A DNA stretch of 34,469 nucleotides from Chitinophaga pinensis (GTDB lineage Bacteria > Bacteroidota > Bacteroidia > NS11-12g > UBA955), in the NCBI GenBank assembly GCA_945865625.1, contig CAMBFD010000013.1, positions 1 through 34,469 on the forward strand. Reading direction: 5' to 3'. Below the pieces are notes generated by a model. That model was not told where the DNA came from and did no database searches. It saw nothing but the letters and a program-made list of their open reading frames with translations. The position numbers and the translations under genes are program-made. Of the stretch, positions 24,762 to 33,460 are shown piece after piece. How positions within the stretch are numbered: the stretch's first letter is position 1; each line of letters starts with the position of its first letter.

Positions 24762-25643
24762 TTATATTTCGAAAACTAGTTTGCCTAATTGTAGGCCGGC
24801 CCATCCAGCTTGGTTTACAATTACGGTTTTGCCTTTTGAATTTTGCACTTCGTTAGGTTTTTCAAGGAAAGTATGCGTATGTCCACCTAAAATTGCATCA
24901 ATTCCATATGTTTTCTTTGCAAGTTTTAAATCGTCGATTTTGTCATCTTGGTATTCGTAACCCAAATGTGAAAGCACAAATACAAGGTCGCATTTTTCTT
25001 TGATTCTTAAAAAATTCACTTCGTTTTGCACCGGTATCACTGGGTCATGATAAACTATTCCTCTGTACATGTCTTCGGTGAGTAAACCTTGTAAATGAAT
25101 GCTTGCACCAGTGACCCCAATTTTCAGGCCATTTTTTTCTATGATGATATGCTTTTTAACCAGGTTTTTTAGTGGTGTATTTTCGAAATCGTAATTGCAA
25201 TTCACAAGCGGAATAGAATTGGCTGACTTTAATTTGGCGAGGTGATCAATGCCTAAATCGAAATCGTGATTTCCTAATGTTCCCGCGTGATATCCCATTT
25301 TTTCCATCCATTGGAGTTCAGGTTTCCCCTCAAAAAAGTTAAAATAGGGCGTTCCTTGGAATACATCACCGCAATCGAAGAGCAGCACATTTTCTTCTTC
25401 TGAACGGATTTGCTGAATGAGCCCACCAAGTTGTAAAATTCCACCTTGATTAGGCCAGGTTGGATGTGTACTTGGAAATGCTTCGAAATGACTGTGAAAA
25501 TCATTGGTATGCAAAACGCAGATTCTTCTCGTTTTTTTATTTTCGAGGGACAATGGCTTTGCAAATACCTCAATGTATGGAAGAGTCAATGTCCCTCCAA
25601 GAAAAAGTAAGCTTCTTTTAATAAAACGCCTGCGGTTAGTCAT
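24762..25643 (-). CDS. Metallophosphatase: catalytic half of a split 5'-nucleotidase, Tat signal
   Basis: 293 aa. A twin-arginine-like signal (NRRRFIKRSLLFLGG) predicts export in folded form. The calcineurin-like phosphoesterase domain matches the N-terminal half of UshA-type 5'-nucleotidases. Metal-site motifs are HTNDFHSH (45-52), DCGDVFQGTPY (90-100), GNHDFD (124-129), VLSHLG and GGHTHTF. The chain stops after this domain, where a full-length enzyme would continue with the substrate-binding C-domain. That missing domain is encoded by the gene just upstream (25636-26430), which overlaps it by 8 bp. The order is the reverse of the usual fused protein, so a frameshift in a single gene cannot explain it. 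Probably removes phosphate from nucleotides or related esters outside the cytoplasm. Confidence 0.9.
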   Translation of the reverse strand: MTNRRRFIKRSLLFLGGTLTLPYIEVFAKPLSLENKKTRRICVLHTNDFHSHFEAFPSTHPTWPNQGGILQLGGLIQQIRSEEENVLLFDCGDVFQGTPYFNFFEGKPELQWMEKMGYHAGTLGNHDFDLGIDHLAKLKSANSIPLVNCNYDFENTPLKNLVKKHIIIEKNGLKIGVTGASIHLQGLLTEDMYRGIVYHDPVIPVQNEVNFLRIKEKCDLVFVLSHLGYEYQDDKIDDLKLAKKTYGIDAILGGHTHTFLEKPNEVQNSKGKTVIVNQAGWAGLQLGKLVFEI

Positions 25644-26430
25644 TGTAGATAATTCTAGGTGTTAAACGAGGGTTTATTTTTTTGTTTTCAATAAATTCTG
25701 ACTTAAATCCATCGTAAAAAATTGTCCGTAATTTTATATCTGTTCGGATAATTTGTTTGGGATATTTTAACATGTTAAAAAAATCACCTCCTTTTTGAAT
25801 GAAGTCATTTGCAACAATCCAATAGCTCCTTCGCGAGTCGAACGGTAAGCCAGCGATTGTAGCTTTTGTATAGGTGTTTCCTGTTACCTGCAATTCTAGA
25901 CCCGATATTGCGGCAATATTCTTGGTTGATAAATATGATAATAAAGAGTCCATTTGGCGACCACTGAGTTCGAGAATGACCATTTCATTTTCAAAAGGCA
26001 TAATTTCATACATCGATTTATTAGTCACATCACCTTTGGGAATACTTGAACGAATGCCGCCATGATTGATAAGTGCAAAATGGCACGGAAATCCCATGGT
26101 ATTGAAGGTATATAGGCTACCTTCTTTGAGCAAATAATCGCTGAGAATTCTGCCAAGGTTTGCATTTTTTTCAATTTGAATCCTTTGGTTGATCTTTCCT
26201 TGTCGAACTGTATTTAAGTTCGAATCGGTAAAAGCAAGTTTTACATTTAAAACTGAATTTAGAGAATCTGAAAACGGTTTTAAAAAATAAAAACTATTAG
26301 AATCAATAGAAATATTGTTGTTTTTTACGGCAATGTTTTGAGCAACAATGATTTTAGTGGGAGTTTTGCATGCGAAAAATAAACAAATACTCATCAAAAT
26401 AAAAAATAATATAGACCGGCTTGAATGCAT
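25636..26430 (-). CDS. 5'-nucleotidase C-terminal domain lipoprotein
   Basis: 264 aa. A lipoprotein signal (SILFFILMSICLFFAC, Cys21) is followed by an Asn/Ser-rich spacer and a 5_nucleotid_C domain. Its landmarks are NLGRILSDYLL, LINHGGIRSSIPKGDVT (the substrate-base loop), MPFENEMVILELSG and WIVANDFIQKGGDFF. This domain binds the nucleoside part of the substrate in UshA-like enzymes but has no catalytic metals of its own. The metallophosphatase gene that supplies them begins inside its last 8 bp. One half is lipidated through Sec and the other carries a Tat-type signal, so the two would meet in the periplasm or at the outer membrane. Confidence 0.9.
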   Translation of the reverse strand: MHSSRSILFFILMSICLFFACKTPTKIIVAQNIAVKNNNISIDSNSFYFLKPFSDSLNSVLNVKLAFTDSNLNTVRQGKINQRIQIEKNANLGRILSDYLLKEGSLYTFNTMGFPCHFALINHGGIRSSIPKGDVTNKSMYEIMPFENEMVILELSGRQMDSLLSYLSTKNIAAISGLELQVTGNTYTKATIAGLPFDSRRSYWIVANDFIQKGGDFFNMLKYPKQIIRTDIKLRTIFYDGFKSEFIENKKINPRLTPRIIYND

Positions 26431-26560
26431 GTTTCCCTAGTTAATCCTGCAAATTTCGATGAAAAAATCAAAGATATGTATGATGCGATTGTTAAAAAAT
26501 TAAAAAAATTGCAAATTTTAGGTGTTAATAAGGTTTAAATTTAGGATTTTTGCAAGAATT
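26431..26560. promoter_or_regulatory. Divergent promoter region between the 5'-nucleotidase pair and the nuclease operon
   Basis: 130 bp, very AT-rich. On the minus strand GAAATTTG (26457-26450) is a near match to TAnnTTTG, about 20 bp before the ATG at 26430. On the plus strand GATTTTTG (26545-26552) lies 8 bp before the ATG at 26561. Both differ from consensus only in the first base. The nonamer TGCAAATTT occurs twice (26448-26456 and 26510-26518) and could be a regulator site. No known operator is recognised. Confidence 0.5.
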
Positions 26561-27544
26561 ATGGCAAAAAGATTTTTATTAGGATTGTTGTCGTTGGTAA
26601 CTGTTGTTGCAGCGGAAGCACAAAATGTACCTGTTTGTACTGAATTGTTTATTTCTGAATATGTTGAAGGTTCTAGAAATAATAAAGCACTTGAAATTTA
26701 CAATCCTACTTCAGACACAGTAGATTTATCGAAATATAGAGTTACGCGTTGGCAGAATGGATCTGCATCTTGGACTTCTCAATATTCTGATGCACTTTCT
26801 GGAAAATTGGCTCCAAAGGATGTCGTTGTTTTAGTCATAGACAGAAGAGATACCACTCAAAAAGGCCAAGACACTCCGGTTGTAATGCCCCTACGTTTAA
26901 AGGCAGATTTATTTTTAAGCAAAGATTACAACACTTCCTTTTCAATGAGTTTTAATGGTGATGATGCAATGTCGTTAGACAAGTTGAATTCAGCCACTTC
27001 AAAATATGATTTGGTTGATATATTTGGTAAAATTGGTGAACGTCCAGTACCAGGATGGAGCGACAAATCGCCATACACTGGAACAGGAGTTTGGTATAGT
27101 GTTGATAAAACCCTCATTCGTAAACCACAAGTATTAACAGGTTTAGATACCATTTTAAAAGGTGTTTATGTGGCTGTGAATCCAAAGTTGTATTTTAATC
27201 CTACTGTAGAATGGAATTTGAATCCAAGAGACATGTTCGATTCATTGGGAGTACACAATTGCAATTGTAATTTATCGAATACAAAACACATTGAAAACAA
27301 CGTAAATGTGAGAATTTTCCCTAATCCGGCGACCAATCAATTGTTTATCAATACCTCTTTGGAATTAGCGACTTTGGAAATATTGAATTCAAATGGGCAA
27401 GTGGTTTCTGCAGATTGGTCAATCGCGAACAACAATCAAATGCAACTGATTTCAGTGAATTTAATCAACCTAATTGAAGGAATTTATACTGTGAATTTAA
27501 AGTCTGTAAACGGACAAACGATAAGTCGTAGATTTATCAAATAA
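26561..27544 (+). CDS. Secreted lamin-tail-domain protein with T9SS sorting domain
   Basis: 327 aa from the ATG at 26561. A signal peptide (MAKRFLLGLLSLVTVVAAEAQ) precedes a lamin tail domain at about 27-230. It opens with ELFISEYVEGS, then NNKALEIYNPT, VDLSKYRVTRW, a long strand region with FNGDDAMSL, DLVDIFG and a WNLNPRDMFDSLG end. This version of the domain is the one commonly found with secreted nucleases such as ExeM. A short Cys/Asn spacer (HNCNCNLSN) leads to a type A T9SS sorting domain at about 248-327 (VRIFPNPATNQ ... GIYTVNLKS ... SRRFIK). It should be exported across the outer membrane and attached to the surface or released. First gene of a three-gene operon; the TonB receptor follows after 2 bp. 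It has no nuclease domain itself. Confidence 0.87.
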   Translation: MAKRFLLGLLSLVTVVAAEAQNVPVCTELFISEYVEGSRNNKALEIYNPTSDTVDLSKYRVTRWQNGSASWTSQYSDALSGKLAPKDVVVLVIDRRDTTQKGQDTPVVMPLRLKADLFLSKDYNTSFSMSFNGDDAMSLDKLNSATSKYDLVDIFGKIGERPVPGWSDKSPYTGTGVWYSVDKTLIRKPQVLTGLDTILKGVYVAVNPKLYFNPTVEWNLNPRDMFDSLGVHNCNCNLSNTKHIENNVNVRIFPNPATNQLFINTSLELATLEILNSNGQVVSADWSIANNNQMQLISVNLINLIEGIYTVNLKSVNGQTISRRFIK

Positions 27545-27546
27545 AA

Positions 27547-30234
27547 ATGCTTAGAAGATTAATTTTTAGCCTTGTTTTTTTATTGGTTTCTGAGGGATTT
27601 TCCCAAACAACAATAAAAGGAAAGGTCATGGATGCTTTGAGTGGCGAATTGCTTGATCAAGTGTTAATTAAAACCCGTGGCAATATGGTAACTTCCGATA
27701 AAAATGGAAATTTTACCATGCAGGTGCCAATGGGTGAATACGTTTTGGTTGCTTCTTTAAATGGCTATGATAATGATTCAATTGCCATACAAGCAGATCG
27801 AAATTTAATTGTTGATTTGACTTTCAAACTTGAAAATCAAAATGCAGCAATGCAGGCAGTTCAAATTACTGCTTCTATGGCAAAGGATAGAAAAACGCCC
27901 GTTGCTTATAGCAATATCAACTCAAAAGACATTCAAGAAAGATTAGGTTCTTCAGATTTGCCAATGTTGTTAAATAGTACTCCAGGTGTTTATGCCACTC
28001 AACAAGGTGGTGGTGCCGGTGATGCTAGAATTACAATCAGGGGATTTAATCAGCGAAATATAGCTGTAATGATTGATGGTATTCCAGTGAATGACATGGA
28101 AAATGGCTGGGTTTATTGGAGCAATTGGTTTGGACTAGGGCCTGTTACTGCATTAACCCAAGTGCAAAGAGGTTTAGGTTCAAGCAGAATTGCAAATCCA
28201 GCAGTGGGTGGTACAATGAATATCATTACCAAGGGAATTACAAGTCAACAAAAATTATCAGCAAATGTTGAAATTGGTGATTCAAGGTACACTCAATTTG
28301 GATTTGATTTTGCAAGTGGTAAATTGAAAGGCGACTGGGGATTTTTACTCGCGTTTACAAAGCGTTCTAGCAATGGTTATGTAGACAACCTGTTCGACGA
28401 TATGTATTCATATTTTGCTAAAATTGAAAAACAGTGGGGGAGTAAACACAGTTTGTCTTTAACTGTTATGGGTGCACCGCAATCTCACGGGCAAAGGTCT
28501 TATAAGGCCAGATTGTCGCTATATGATCGTTCTATGGCCATGAAATTGGGTATGGATACTGTTTTAACCAATATGGCTGTGAATCAAGGGATTCGATACA
28601 ATCAACATTGGGGTCCTCTGAATGAAGCCAAAATTGATAACAACACTGGAGATACCATTTGGGGACAAAATAAAATTGTGAATGAACGGGTGAATATGTT
28701 TCACAAACCCCAAGTTTATTTGAAATACGATTATAAACCGAATAAAAAAGTTTTGAGTAGCACTGTTGCTTATATGTCTACCGGTAATGGTGGAGGAACA
28801 GCAAAAGAAAGAATCAATCAAGTGCCTTTTAATTATGGTACTATGGATTTTCAAACTGTTTGGTTTCAAAATAATGATTATGGATTTATTTCAGCTGTTG
28901 ATTATAAATATTCGCTAACTGAAAGAAAATCGGCAGGTATATTATACAGAAGTGTGAACAATCATACTTGGTATGGTTTATTGAATACCACTCAATATAA
29001 ATTTCATAAAGATTTTACCTTTTCTGGAGGTTTAGATTTAAGAAGTTATGTTGGACAACACTACAAAGAAGTTTATGATTTAATAGGTGGTGAATATTTT
29101 ATACCGGATGTGAGTGAGTTAAATCCAAATTACGGAAAATTACATCGTTACAAACAAGGTGATATATTCAATTATCATAACGATGGTTTGGTGAATTGGG
29201 CTGGAACTTTTGGTGAATTGGAATATAGTAGAGGTAGAACTTCAGCGTTTGTAAATGCTTCATATTCGAGTAGTTTTTATAAACGTAAAGATTATTTTAG
29301 ACCTGATTCAAATGGTAATCCTGGGGAAACTGATTGGATCAATAGGAATGGATATACGGTTAAAACAGGGATCAATTACAATGTAAATAAGAATTTTAAT
29401 GTTTTCACAAATATTGGATATTTGAATAGGCCAACGCGTTACAGCAATATTTTTGACAATAAAAACAGGGTCATTCAAGGTGCTGAAAACGAACTTGTTT
29501 ATGCATTTGAAGGTGGAGCTGCATTTAAATCCAAGAGAGTTTCAATTAATTTGAATGGGTATTATACAAATTGGGTGAATAGACCTGTTGATTTCCTTCC
29601 AAGTTTTCCGGATGTAGATGGAAATATGTTATACTTTAATATCAATGGACTTAGAGCCAGACACATGGGAATTGAATTGCAAAGTGTTTTTAAACCCGGA
29701 AATGGAATTACCATCGAATTTGGAATGGCTCTTGGTGATTGGATATGGAAATCGGGTTCAAATGCCATTGTAAGAGACGATGCTGGTGATTCAGTTGGTA
29801 TGGTTAAATTTAATGCCGATGGCGTTCATGTTGGCGATGCTGCCCAAGTTCAATACACTGGAATGATTCGTTGGGAACCTACCGAGTTTAAAGGTTCTTA
29901 CATTGCATTGCAATATGTAAGGTTTGAGAAGCAATTTGCAGATTTTCAACCAACCGCACTTACGGGTGCTTTTGCCGGAAAAGAATCATTTAAATTGCCA
30001 GATTATTGGTATATGAATTTAAATTTAGGTTACAAAATTACATTGTCAAATCAATTGAATTTGAATATTTATGGTATGATTAATAACATTACCAACAATA
30101 TTTATATCAGCGATGCTCAACATCGCTCACTTGGTGCAAATGATAATCCTGCCCCAATTTTTAATCCTAAGAATTTAGAAGTGTTCTTGTCTCAAGGATT
30201 ACGATACACAACCGGAATTCGTTTAACTTTTTAA
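27547..30234 (+). CDS. TonB-dependent receptor with carboxypeptidase-like N-domain, in a nuclease operon
   Basis: 895 aa. A signal peptide of about 20 residues (ends EGFSQ) precedes a carboxypeptidase-regulatory-like domain at about 22-95 (TIKGKVMDALSGELLDQVLI). The plug is at about 115-235, with DLPMLLNSTPGVYATQQGGG, RITIRGFNQRNIAVMIDG, VNDMENGWVYWS and NPAVGGTMNIITKG. A large aromatic-rich barrel follows and ends with a terminal strand GIRLTF. It lies between two T9SS-secreted proteins, 2 bp after the lamin-tail gene and 10 bp before endonuclease I. Import of products from nucleic-acid digestion is the natural guess for its role, but the sequence does not prove it. No SusD-like gene is present. 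Confidence 0.9.
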   Translation: MLRRLIFSLVFLLVSEGFSQTTIKGKVMDALSGELLDQVLIKTRGNMVTSDKNGNFTMQVPMGEYVLVASLNGYDNDSIAIQADRNLIVDLTFKLENQNAAMQAVQITASMAKDRKTPVAYSNINSKDIQERLGSSDLPMLLNSTPGVYATQQGGGAGDARITIRGFNQRNIAVMIDGIPVNDMENGWVYWSNWFGLGPVTALTQVQRGLGSSRIANPAVGGTMNIITKGITSQQKLSANVEIGDSRYTQFGFDFASGKLKGDWGFLLAFTKRSSNGYVDNLFDDMYSYFAKIEKQWGSKHSLSLTVMGAPQSHGQRSYKARLSLYDRSMAMKLGMDTVLTNMAVNQGIRYNQHWGPLNEAKIDNNTGDTIWGQNKIVNERVNMFHKPQVYLKYDYKPNKKVLSSTVAYMSTGNGGGTAKERINQVPFNYGTMDFQTVWFQNNDYGFISAVDYKYSLTERKSAGILYRSVNNHTWYGLLNTTQYKFHKDFTFSGGLDLRSYVGQHYKEVYDLIGGEYFIPDVSELNPNYGKLHRYKQGDIFNYHNDGLVNWAGTFGELEYSRGRTSAFVNASYSSSFYKRKDYFRPDSNGNPGETDWINRNGYTVKTGINYNVNKNFNVFTNIGYLNRPTRYSNIFDNKNRVIQGAENELVYAFEGGAAFKSKRVSINLNGYYTNWVNRPVDFLPSFPDVDGNMLYFNINGLRARHMGIELQSVFKPGNGITIEFGMALGDWIWKSGSNAIVRDDAGDSVGMVKFNADGVHVGDAAQVQYTGMIRWEPTEFKGSYIALQYVRFEKQFADFQPTALTGAFAGKESFKLPDYWYMNLNLGYKITLSNQLNLNIYGMINNITNNIYISDAQHRSLGANDNPAPIFNPKNLEVFLSQGLRYTTGIRLTF

Positions 30235-30244
30235 AAATAGAACA

Positions 30245-32449
30245 ATGAAAAAATATATCATCGCAATTTTAACCCTCGCTGTAAGTTTTGGGTTGAAAGC
30301 ACAAGGTACATTGCCAATGTATTTTGATTGTAATTCTAATGTAAATCCACCTACAGGTTGGACATTAAGTCAGGGCACTACAGGTAACTTTACTTATTCA
30401 ACGGCTGCGTTTGTAAAAAGTGCTCCAAATGCTTTGCGTTTTGATCTTACAGGAGAGTATGCTTTGGCCTATTGGTCTGGTAAAGCTGATACAATCACGT
30501 ATTGGATGAGTGGCACTGCTGCTACTGGTGTTACCACTTGGACAGGAAATGTAACTGTAGATGAAAGTGCCGACGGTTCATCTTGGAATACGGTTAAAGA
30601 CCACTTAAACGATTTAGGTGTATCAATAAAAATGTATACAATTCGAGTAAAACCATCTTCGAGATACATTCGTTTTTATTACAAGTCAAAAGCATCTGGC
30701 TTTAATCTGGCCATAGATGATGTAACCATTAACCCGGCTCCTGCTGGAGATGCACCTGAATTACAAGTTTCTTATAAAGGCAAAAAGATAATTCACAATG
30801 CAACAGTGAAAACTGGAAATGATACACTCATTCAATTGAAAGTTTTAAACAATAGCAAAGTTGCTGAACTAAACATCAGTGAAATCAAATTGACAGGCAC
30901 ACAAATTGCATCTTTCGAATTGGCAAATGCCGCTCAAGGAAAAATTTCTGCAGGTGACTCAACAAACATTCAGGTGAAATTAAAGGCTGTATCTCAAGGA
31001 ACCTATAATGTGAATGTAACAATAACTTCAAATGATACTTTGAATAATCCATTTACGTTAACATTGTCTACAATTAAAGGTCAATTTGCTTCTCAACCAG
31101 CTTCACAACCTACAGCATTGGATGTAACTCCTAAAGCGTGGAGAATGAATGGTAAATTCACGGTTGCGGCCGGCGCAGAATCATATTTGGTTGTTTGTTC
31201 AAAAGGTAGTTCTACTGATGTGCCTGTTGATGGCGCTGAATATCAGCGTGGTCAATATATTGGTAACTCTCGTGTGATTTATGTTGGTACCAACAATGCC
31301 AATATTGATTTTGATAACATCGTTGCCAACACAAATTATGTGGTACGTGTATTTAGTTTCAACGGATATGGAGCCTATACGAATTATTTAACTCCGTCTC
31401 CTTTGTCTCAAAATATTACGACACCAGGTTTATCTGCTGGTGCATATTACGGATCTTTAACATCAGCTGACACAATGTTGGTTGGCAAATTAAAAGCCAT
31501 TTTACGCCCACACCGTCAAGTCTATTATTCAAATTTTGCTTCATATATCATTAATAATTTTGAAGCACGTGATACTACCGAAGGCAAACAAATTTTGAGC
31601 TGCTTCTATTCTGGGTATCATTATAAGTACACGCCTCCATTTAAATTCGATACCATGTCTCGCGAACATTCTTATCCTTCAAGTTGGATGGGTGAGAGCA
31701 GTCAAGATAGTTTTAACTACAGCGATTTGCATATTTTGTTCCCCGTGAATCAAAATAAAGTAAATGTAGTGAGAAGTAACTATCCTTTGAATAACTTAAA
31801 ATCTGTGACTACAAGCTTCTATGGTGGTAAATTTGGTACAGATAGCGCAGGTGAATTTGCGTATGAACCACGTGATTTTGCAAAAGGAACTGCAGCCCGT
31901 GCCAATTTCTATGTTTGTGCTACTTATAACAGACCTGGTAAAGCATTCACAATTCCTACCGACAACCAATTCCTTGGTACGAATCAAGATCAAAACGTTT
32001 TAAAACGTTGGAACAAGAAATATCCTCCAACAAATTGGGAAATTGCTCGTATGGAATACATTTCGCAAAGCAGTGTTCAAAACAATAGAAATCCGTTCAT
32101 CGACAATCCTGATTGGGCTTGCTTTATCGATTTTAGCAACATGTCATACATTAAAGGTGGCGATTGTGGTGAACCAAAGCAATCATCTACTGTAAAAACT
32201 TCTAAAACTTTAAATGTAAATGTTTATCCTAACCCTTCAACTCACAATTTAAACATAGACATGTCGGCATTTAACGGCCAACAGGTAAATGTTTATGTTT
32301 TTGATTTCTATGAAAGAGCTGTATTCGAAACATCAACTTCAAGTAAATCATTAAATATAGATTCGAAAAATTGGGCAAACGGTAATTATTTATTATTAAT
32401 ACGCTCTAATAACGGGTTAACTGCTGTTCAAAATATTGTAAAACAATAG
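30245..32449 (+). CDS. Secreted endonuclease I family nuclease with T9SS sorting domain
   Basis: 734 aa in five parts. A signal peptide (ends GLKAQ, residue 20) comes first. A carbohydrate-binding-like beta-sandwich spans about 22-165. An ASH/choice-of-anchor-D-like domain (172-280) and an FN3-like domain (about 285-395) follow. The Endonuclease_1 domain (398-632) has REHSYP at 473-478 (catalytic His475), SDLHILFPVNQNKVNVVRSN in outline at 493-512, EPRDFAKGTAARANFY at 541-556 and NNRNPFIDNPDWAC at 613-626. The T9SS sorting domain is at about 655-734 (VNVYPNPSTHNL). Family members cut DNA and RNA with Mg2+. It is expected on the cell surface or outside the cell. Last gene of the operon; a strong terminator follows 20 bp later. 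Confidence 0.93.
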   Translation: MKKYIIAILTLAVSFGLKAQGTLPMYFDCNSNVNPPTGWTLSQGTTGNFTYSTAAFVKSAPNALRFDLTGEYALAYWSGKADTITYWMSGTAATGVTTWTGNVTVDESADGSSWNTVKDHLNDLGVSIKMYTIRVKPSSRYIRFYYKSKASGFNLAIDDVTINPAPAGDAPELQVSYKGKKIIHNATVKTGNDTLIQLKVLNNSKVAELNISEIKLTGTQIASFELANAAQGKISAGDSTNIQVKLKAVSQGTYNVNVTITSNDTLNNPFTLTLSTIKGQFASQPASQPTALDVTPKAWRMNGKFTVAAGAESYLVVCSKGSSTDVPVDGAEYQRGQYIGNSRVIYVGTNNANIDFDNIVANTNYVVRVFSFNGYGAYTNYLTPSPLSQNITTPGLSAGAYYGSLTSADTMLVGKLKAILRPHRQVYYSNFASYIINNFEARDTTEGKQILSCFYSGYHYKYTPPFKFDTMSREHSYPSSWMGESSQDSFNYSDLHILFPVNQNKVNVVRSNYPLNNLKSVTTSFYGGKFGTDSAGEFAYEPRDFAKGTAARANFYVCATYNRPGKAFTIPTDNQFLGTNQDQNVLKRWNKKYPPTNWEIARMEYISQSSVQNNRNPFIDNPDWACFIDFSNMSYIKGGDCGEPKQSSTVKTSKTLNVNVYPNPSTHNLNIDMSAFNGQQVNVYVFDFYERAVFETSTSSKSLNIDSKNWANGNYLLLIRSNNGLTAVQNIVKQ

Positions 32450-32469
32450 AATAAGATTTTTTCTCTTGA

Positions 32470-32500
32470 GGGATAATGGTACGCCATTATCCCTTTTTTT
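32470..32500 (+). terminator. Strong intrinsic terminator after endonuclease I
   Basis: GGGATAATGG (32470-32479), loop TACG, CCATTATCCC (32484-32493), then seven T. The 10-bp stem is perfect and the UACG loop belongs to the very stable UNCG class. Confidence 0.96.
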
Positions 32501-32570: not shown

Positions 32571-32578
32571 TACTTTTG
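32571..32578 (+). promoter_or_regulatory. -7 promoter element TACTTTTG for nadC
   Basis: An exact TAnnTTTG match. It overlaps the ATG at 32576, which rules that codon out as a start and supports the ATG at 32603. Confidence 0.6.
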
Positions 32579-32602
32579 AAGTTTATTTTTTATTCTCGTA
32601 AA

Positions 32603-33460
32603 ATGATTGACTTCAACTCGGATTTTCTTAAAAATCAAATTTCCCAATGGCTATTAGAAGATGTAGGAAGTGGCGACTATTCTTCCTTAGCATCCATTGA
32701 TAACACTGCAACGGCTGAATCTAAGTTGATTCTAAAGGATAACGGTGTAGTGGCTGGTTTAGAATTGGCAAAAGTTATCTTCAATTGCATCGATCCGTCA
32801 GTTCAATTAAACGTTTTGGCTTCAGATGGTGTCTATTATGAAAAAGGTACCATCTTGGCAACTGCAACTGGAAATGCTCAAGTCCTATTAAAGGGAGAAC
32901 GTTTGATGTTAAATCTGATGCAACGTTTGTCGGGTATTGCAACTCAAACGAAAGTGGCGGTAGATATTGTTGAAGGTACCGGTGTGAAGCTTTTAGATAC
33001 ACGTAAAACGACCCCAGGATTGCGACATTTGGAAAAATGGGCCGTAACCATGGGTGGTGGTTTTAATCACCGTATTGGCTTGTATGATATGATTATGCTG
33101 AAAGACAATCATATCGATTCTTCTGGGGGAATAACCACTGCTGTGAATAGAACAAAACAATACCTCAAAGAGAATAATCTAAATCTTAAAATAGAAGTTG
33201 AAACCAGAAATATGGATGAAGTGAACGAAGCTCTCGCGGTAGGCGTTGATAGAATAATGCTCGATAACTTTTATCCAGAACAATGTAAGTTTGCAGTTGA
33301 TGTTATTGGTAACCAGTGCGAAACAGAAGCTTCTGGGGGAATTACATTGGCAAATTTAAAAGAATATGCGCTTTCTGGCGTTACATATATTAGTTTGGGT
33401 TACTTTACGCACAGTGTAAAAGCCTTGGATATTAGTTTCAAAACAAAATTAAAAAAATAA
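32603..33460 (+). CDS. nadC: Nicotinate-nucleotide pyrophosphorylase (carboxylating)
   Basis: Makes nicotinate mononucleotide from quinolinate and PRPP in NAD synthesis. 285 aa, the usual size. The N-terminal sandwich has LEDVGSGDYSS (19-29 region) and GVVAGLELA. The barrel has GERLMLNLMQRLSGIAT, LDTRKTTPGLRHLEKWAV (the quinolinate site, in outline), GGGFNHRIGLYDMIMLKDNH and IEVETRN. LDNF and ASGGI follow, where the PRPP site closes. No nadA or nadB is in the window. It is followed after 1 bp by a thioredoxin-like gene and then an rRNA methyltransferase, forming a mixed operon. Confidence 0.97.
   Translation: MIDFNSDFLKNQISQWLLEDVGSGDYSSLASIDNTATAESKLILKDNGVVAGLELAKVIFNCIDPSVQLNVLASDGVYYEKGTILATATGNAQVLLKGERLMLNLMQRLSGIATQTKVAVDIVEGTGVKLLDTRKTTPGLRHLEKWAVTMGGGFNHRIGLYDMIMLKDNHIDSSGGITTAVNRTKQYLKENNLNLKIEVETRNMDEVNEALAVGVDRIMLDNFYPEQCKFAVDVIGNQCETEASGGITLANLKEYALSGVTYISLGYFTHSVKALDISFKTKLKK

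Follow-up and report, generated by a model that had tools for sequence, protein, structure and literature searches.

What does a TonB-dependent receptor (TBDR) import when its gene stands between those of two secreted proteins, one with a lamin-tail domain (LTD) and one an endonuclease I, and back to back with a 5'-nucleotidase? This arrangement occurs in the window, the whole stretch of 34,469 nucleotides analysed here, which comes from a 2.2 Mb draft genome in 153 contigs. A preliminary description had proposed that its five genes form a surface system that binds, cuts and imports extracellular nucleic acid.

Gene layout and protein content

The five genes and their layout, as first described, were confirmed by ORF calls, Pfam matches and the layout of relatives; because the layout is conserved there, it does not reflect chance. 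Three genes lie on the plus strand. The LTD gene was called as an ORF at 26522-27544 with a GTG start at 26522, but the ATG at 26561 is the better start (26561..27544) and yields a signal peptide. The receptor gene follows after 2 bp (27547-30234), and the gene for endonuclease I with a T9SS tail after a further 10 bp (30245-32449). On the minus strand, the gene for the 5'-nucleotidase C-terminal domain (25636..26430, start at 26430) is transcribed first and is overlapped by 8 bp (ATGACTAA) by the gene for the metallophosphatase half (24762..25643). The 130 bp proposed to separate the two divergent operons were borne out, extending from the nucleotidase start at 26430 to the ATG at 26561, and no regulator site was identified in this interval (26431..26560). 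The nearest public relative found, an uncultured Bacteroidetes bacterium MAG (isolate ErkenSummer_bin-0977; L032), has a receptor with 97% identity.

The receptor combines a carboxypeptidase-regulatory domain (CarbopepD_reg_2, 1.9e-12) with the plug (3.5e-14; motif VNDMENGWVYWSNWFGL) and large beta-barrel that characterize TBDRs, and is the sole full-length member of its family in the genome. Its AlphaFold model (pLDDT 78) reached target-normalised TM values of 0.78-0.81 to PqqU, FecA and YncD. The best matches in sequence and structure searches were siderophore- and B12-type receptors, reflecting a generic TBDR fold, and neither model nor structure searches returned a substrate-specific match.

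Downstream, the endonuclease I protein (Endonuclease_1, 1.4e-24) has an accessory N-terminal region, a nuclease domain at approximately residues 469-622 and a terminal T9SS tail (Por_Secre_tail, 1.3e-12). It aligns to 1oup around N507, and E474, H475 and N507 belong to the set conserved in at least 95% of 24 aligned sequences. We take these residues to be the equivalents of the catalytic E79, H80 and N127 of Vibrio vulnificus Vvn, so that the catalytic E-H pair and metal-binding N of PF04231 are present. The enzyme thus shares its nuclease fold and catalytic residues with secreted or periplasmic endonuclease I of the Vvn type (1oup, 2pu3), whereas its long N-terminal region, its T9SS tail and a receptor in the operon set it apart.

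The LTD protein (LTD, 8.7e-12) ends in a T9SS type A sorting tail (Por_Secre_tail, 2.7e-12), and its N-terminal portion aligns with the LTD region of the exonuclease ExeM at 3.8e-15, far under the model cut-off. ExeM is a single chain that includes an EEP-type nuclease. The locus resembles such nucleases (NF033680) in combining an LTD with a secreted nuclease, but the two are here separate T9SS-sorted proteins with a receptor gene between them. At L052:11774-14863, a T9SS-sorted protein of 1030 aa joins endonuclease I to a weaker, sub-threshold LTD match. A protein of the same length was seen in L063. LTDs are also reported to be fused to secreted DNases in halophiles, for which DNA binding was proposed (PMC4486849). 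A structure search with the AlphaFold model of the LTD protein (pLDDT 88) gave weak Ig-like fold matches, with lamin A/C at rank 31, and no substrate clue. In structure comparison the model weakly resembled the DUF4876 protein BT_1938, and DUF4876-TBDR pairs are iron-regulated in Bacteroides and Porphyromonas (PMC10434189). Since LTD-like DUF4876 proteins accompany iron-regulated receptors, an LTD does not by itself imply nucleic acid.

The 5'-nucleotidase has both domains of the UshA type, Metallophos (1e-18) and 5_nucleotid_C (3e-21), and aligns to UshA; the difference is that two chains replace one, with the C-terminal half encoded first. The metallophosphatase half spans the N-terminal half of 5'-nucleotidases (best match 2z1a, 2.4e-30; UshA 1ush, 3e-19) and carries the metal-ligand motifs NDFHSH, GDVFQG, GNHD and GHTH, while its partner covers UshA model positions 336-533. 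The N-terminus of the former, MTNRRRFIKRS, reads as a Tat-like signal, and the latter is a probable nucleotide-binding lipoprotein with the lipobox LFFAC. Two different export routes are therefore predicted for halves that presumably pair. Elsewhere in the same genome, another ORF of 587 aa also has the C-terminal domain (G000:C18:4186-4620) and probably encodes a full-length 5'-nucleotidase.

Conservation of the receptor's neighbourhood

Relatives were gathered with the receptor protein alone as query, and the genes beside them consequently constitute independent evidence. Among the best 80 relatives, an LTD gene lay within 6 kb upstream in 69 of the 72 loci with upstream sequence, standing directly upstream in gene listings, and a nuclease lay within 6 kb in 64 of the 66 loci with downstream sequence. 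The two nuclease exceptions, L087 and L091, have a T9SS-sorted OB-like protein in the nuclease's place. At both (L087:6197-7087, L091:11871-12758) the OB-like gene is directly 3' of the receptor and there is no upstream LTD, possibly a third variant. An apparent LTD-TBDR fusion in L047 was rejected as a probable assembly frameshift, since the receptor part retains a signal-like segment of its own and the tail of the LTD protein seems broken.

A separate genome sample gave a similar picture. A search of 396 genomes from the class at 1e-60 recovered the receptor family in 129, mostly in one copy. Where a receptor was reported in pieces, its score was added up or estimated manually before the genome was classed as high- or low-scoring. 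Endonuclease I was present within 6 kb in 25 of the 38 genomes with a high-scoring receptor, spanning 18 family codes, where approximately 0.4% would be expected per gene; since these genomes are related, the binomial comparison does not amount to a p-value. The other 13 had a PLD nuclease beside the receptor (7 genomes) or neither nuclease (6 genomes). Hence, the core unit is LTD protein, TBDR and nuclease, conserved across Bacteroidota. We found no description of it in the open-access papers searched, although one may exist elsewhere.

The nuclease itself is exchanged. Of the best 80 relatives, 36 loci have endonuclease I within 6 kb of the receptor and 29 a PLD-fold nuclease, with both in one; in the examples compared with Pfam, the PLD-fold protein carries a DUF5689-like OB domain and a T9SS tail. 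On a FastTree phylogeny of 116 receptors, in which deep placements lie on long branches, parsimony required 9 switches between endonuclease I and PLD, or at least 6 when counting well-supported branches only. Two unrelated folds with like activity in one slot argue for nuclease activity as the trait under selection, and this is strong evidence that the purpose of the locus is to cut nucleic acid. Bacteroidota MAGs often encode secreted endonucleases (PMC11495043). The originally proposed association of receptor and nuclease is thus strongly supported by both co-conservation and repeated swaps.

The rest of the proposal held in part. Close homologues of the receptor in unrelated contexts, such as siderophore or glycan loci, had been named as what would refute it. 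The receptor's own clade gave no such refutation, but more distant family members (about 500-900 bits) are frequently solitary, often with no nuclease neighbour. As a separate observation, the distant members L180, L181, L182 and L184 adjoin endonuclease I or EEP nucleases, and L182 also a DUF5017 protein. Likewise, the five-gene unit exists in the window and its relatives but is not fixed, as the split nucleotidase was within 6 kb of the receptor in only 7 of the 38 genomes with a high-scoring receptor. Many Bacteroidota encode the C-terminal half on its own, usually at another place in the genome. Where linked, the pair is either divergent (the window's family: L033-L036, G073 and G066) or downstream and co-directional (another family: L060, L068, L082, L084, L085, L099, L107 and L110; G105, G346, G410 and G426). 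A full-length 5'-nucleotidase adjoins a distant family receptor in L184. The split 5'-nucleotidase is therefore a recurring yet optional partner, unlinked in most genomes.

Probable nutritional scavenging

A nucleic-acid role of the locus is well supported by these genomic results. With modest confidence, we consider the locus a nucleic-acid scavenging system, nutritional scavenging being its most likely reading. In such a system, endonuclease I exported by the T9SS would cut DNA or RNA outside the cell, at the surface. The LTD protein, exported likewise, would sit with the receptor and either bind the polymer or hold the nuclease at the mouth of the receptor. The TBDR would draw oligonucleotides (or nucleotides) across the outer membrane, and a periplasmic 5'-nucleotidase, composed of a Tat-exported metallophosphatase and a lipoprotein substrate-binding half, would remove phosphate, leaving nucleosides and phosphate able to cross the inner membrane. 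That DNA or RNA pieces are what the receptor carries, what the LTD protein does, the sequence of steps and the pairing of the nucleotidase halves are our inferences.

Linkage of the nucleotidase in two arrangements, and again near a DUF5689-type receptor (L166), counts for scavenging, as does the joining of LTD and nuclease in ExeM and L052. Counting against it, the locus has no enzyme turning oligonucleotides into the mononucleotides that a 5'-nucleotidase needs. The nucleotidase's lack of linkage in most genomes, the distant family members without a nuclease neighbour and the capacity of LTD-fold proteins to pair with receptors for other substrates also weigh against scavenging.

The locus is comparable to SusCD polysaccharide utilisation loci in placing a surface enzyme, a surface protein and a TonB receptor in one operon. 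It differs in that none of its proteins matched SusC or SusD among Pfam and protein-family models, and a nuclease replaces glycosidases. If the scavenging reading is true, Bacteroidota possess a widespread outer-membrane apparatus devoted to nucleic acids, much as polysaccharide utilisation loci are devoted to glycans, with consequences for how phosphorus and nitrogen in environmental DNA are cycled.

Transformation-type receptors and other explanations

In an alternative absent from the preliminary description, the receptor might instead be a DNA translocator, with TonB driving the passage of long double- or single-stranded DNA, either in natural transformation or as import before digestion. 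The LTD protein would then be a DNA receptor and the nuclease would trim ends. We judge this explanation unlikely, though it has a precedent in the duck pathogen Riemerella anatipestifer. There, the outer-membrane protein RA0C_RS04915, which has a carboxypeptidase-regulatory domain, adjoins the DUF5689/DUF5017 protein RA0C_RS04920, and markerless deletion showed each to be essential for natural transformation (PMC8459023). Transformation is also inhibited by mutation of tonBA or tonBB, the tonBB effect being ascribed to iron (PMC8383284). The window shares with this pair a carboxypeptidase-regulatory-domain receptor and an adjacent exported partner; it differs in that the partner is an LTD rather than a DUF5689/choice-of-anchor J protein and the receptor clade is distant.

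Receptor-DUF5689 pairs were found in the genome sample, including L164/L193 and L166, with representatives picked by architecture and likened to the Riemerella pair through architecture and gene order only, which weakens the parallel. The receptor profile gave DUF5689-type receptors about 148-260 bits and other TBDRs of the window genome at most 45. The reverse profile, of the DUF5689 type, gave the window receptor 220.9 bits and those other TBDRs at most 36. The plug motif of the window receptor recurs in L164 and L166. These reciprocal scores favour a translocator and suggest that DUF5689-type receptors are distant yet specific kin of the window receptor, although on the tree of 116 receptors they form a separate, distant group, which counts against it.

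Loci of the Riemerella-type architecture adjoin nucleases as well, again in favour of a translocator. L166:4140-12885 and L193:1289-7623 encode a receptor, a DUF5689 protein and a T9SS protein with an EEP nuclease adjacent or close, the one in L193 being assigned through likeness to the Pfam-matched EEP of L166. In both, the partner has DUF5689 followed by an apparent choice-of-anchor J region. A PLD nuclease is near the DUF5689-type receptor in L158, and L166 is also near a split 5'-nucleotidase. Simple motif searches found no recA, comEC or dprA beside DUF5689-type loci. ComEC is present in the window genome, in keeping with DNA uptake, but is so widespread that it proves little. Against a translocator, the same genome has no DUF5689 match, and one would expect a surface nuclease encoded next to the receptor to harm transforming DNA.

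Scavenging and translocation could be joined by a broader view, which we regard as rather doubtful: the receptors of LTD-TBDR-nuclease loci and DUF5689-associated receptors may constitute one superfamily of TonB-driven nucleic-acid importers, ranging from oligonucleotide scavenging to whole-DNA uptake. If true, these importers would be the outer-membrane DNA gate still missing from the picture of Bacteroidota. Since the receptor is specifically related to transformation-type receptors, the route by which DNA passes the outer membrane in this phylum can be tested directly with named genes.

It is quite improbable that the receptor imports some other cargo, such as a metal, cofactor or phosphate-rich compound, with the nuclease freeing that cargo from DNA or clearing extracellular DNA or biofilm matrix. 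The generic fold, with its siderophore- and B12-type best matches, the iron-responsive DUF4876-TBDR pairs (PMC10434189) and the many distant relatives without nucleases would fit such cargo, but not the near-invariant nuclease adjacency that the receptor's own clade maintained through at least 6 changes of nuclease fold. Least probable is that the genes are neighbours by descent, sharing a place or export route and no function: in L033-L036 the locus also has a pseudouridine synthase gene and nadC at its flanks, but neither is kept outside the window's relatives while LTD, TBDR and nuclease are kept across many families, and nuclease exchange largely refutes the idea. nadC lies near a receptor-family member in the window (32576-33460) and in a distant locus (L167:2590-3447, where nadC was assigned by its sequence).
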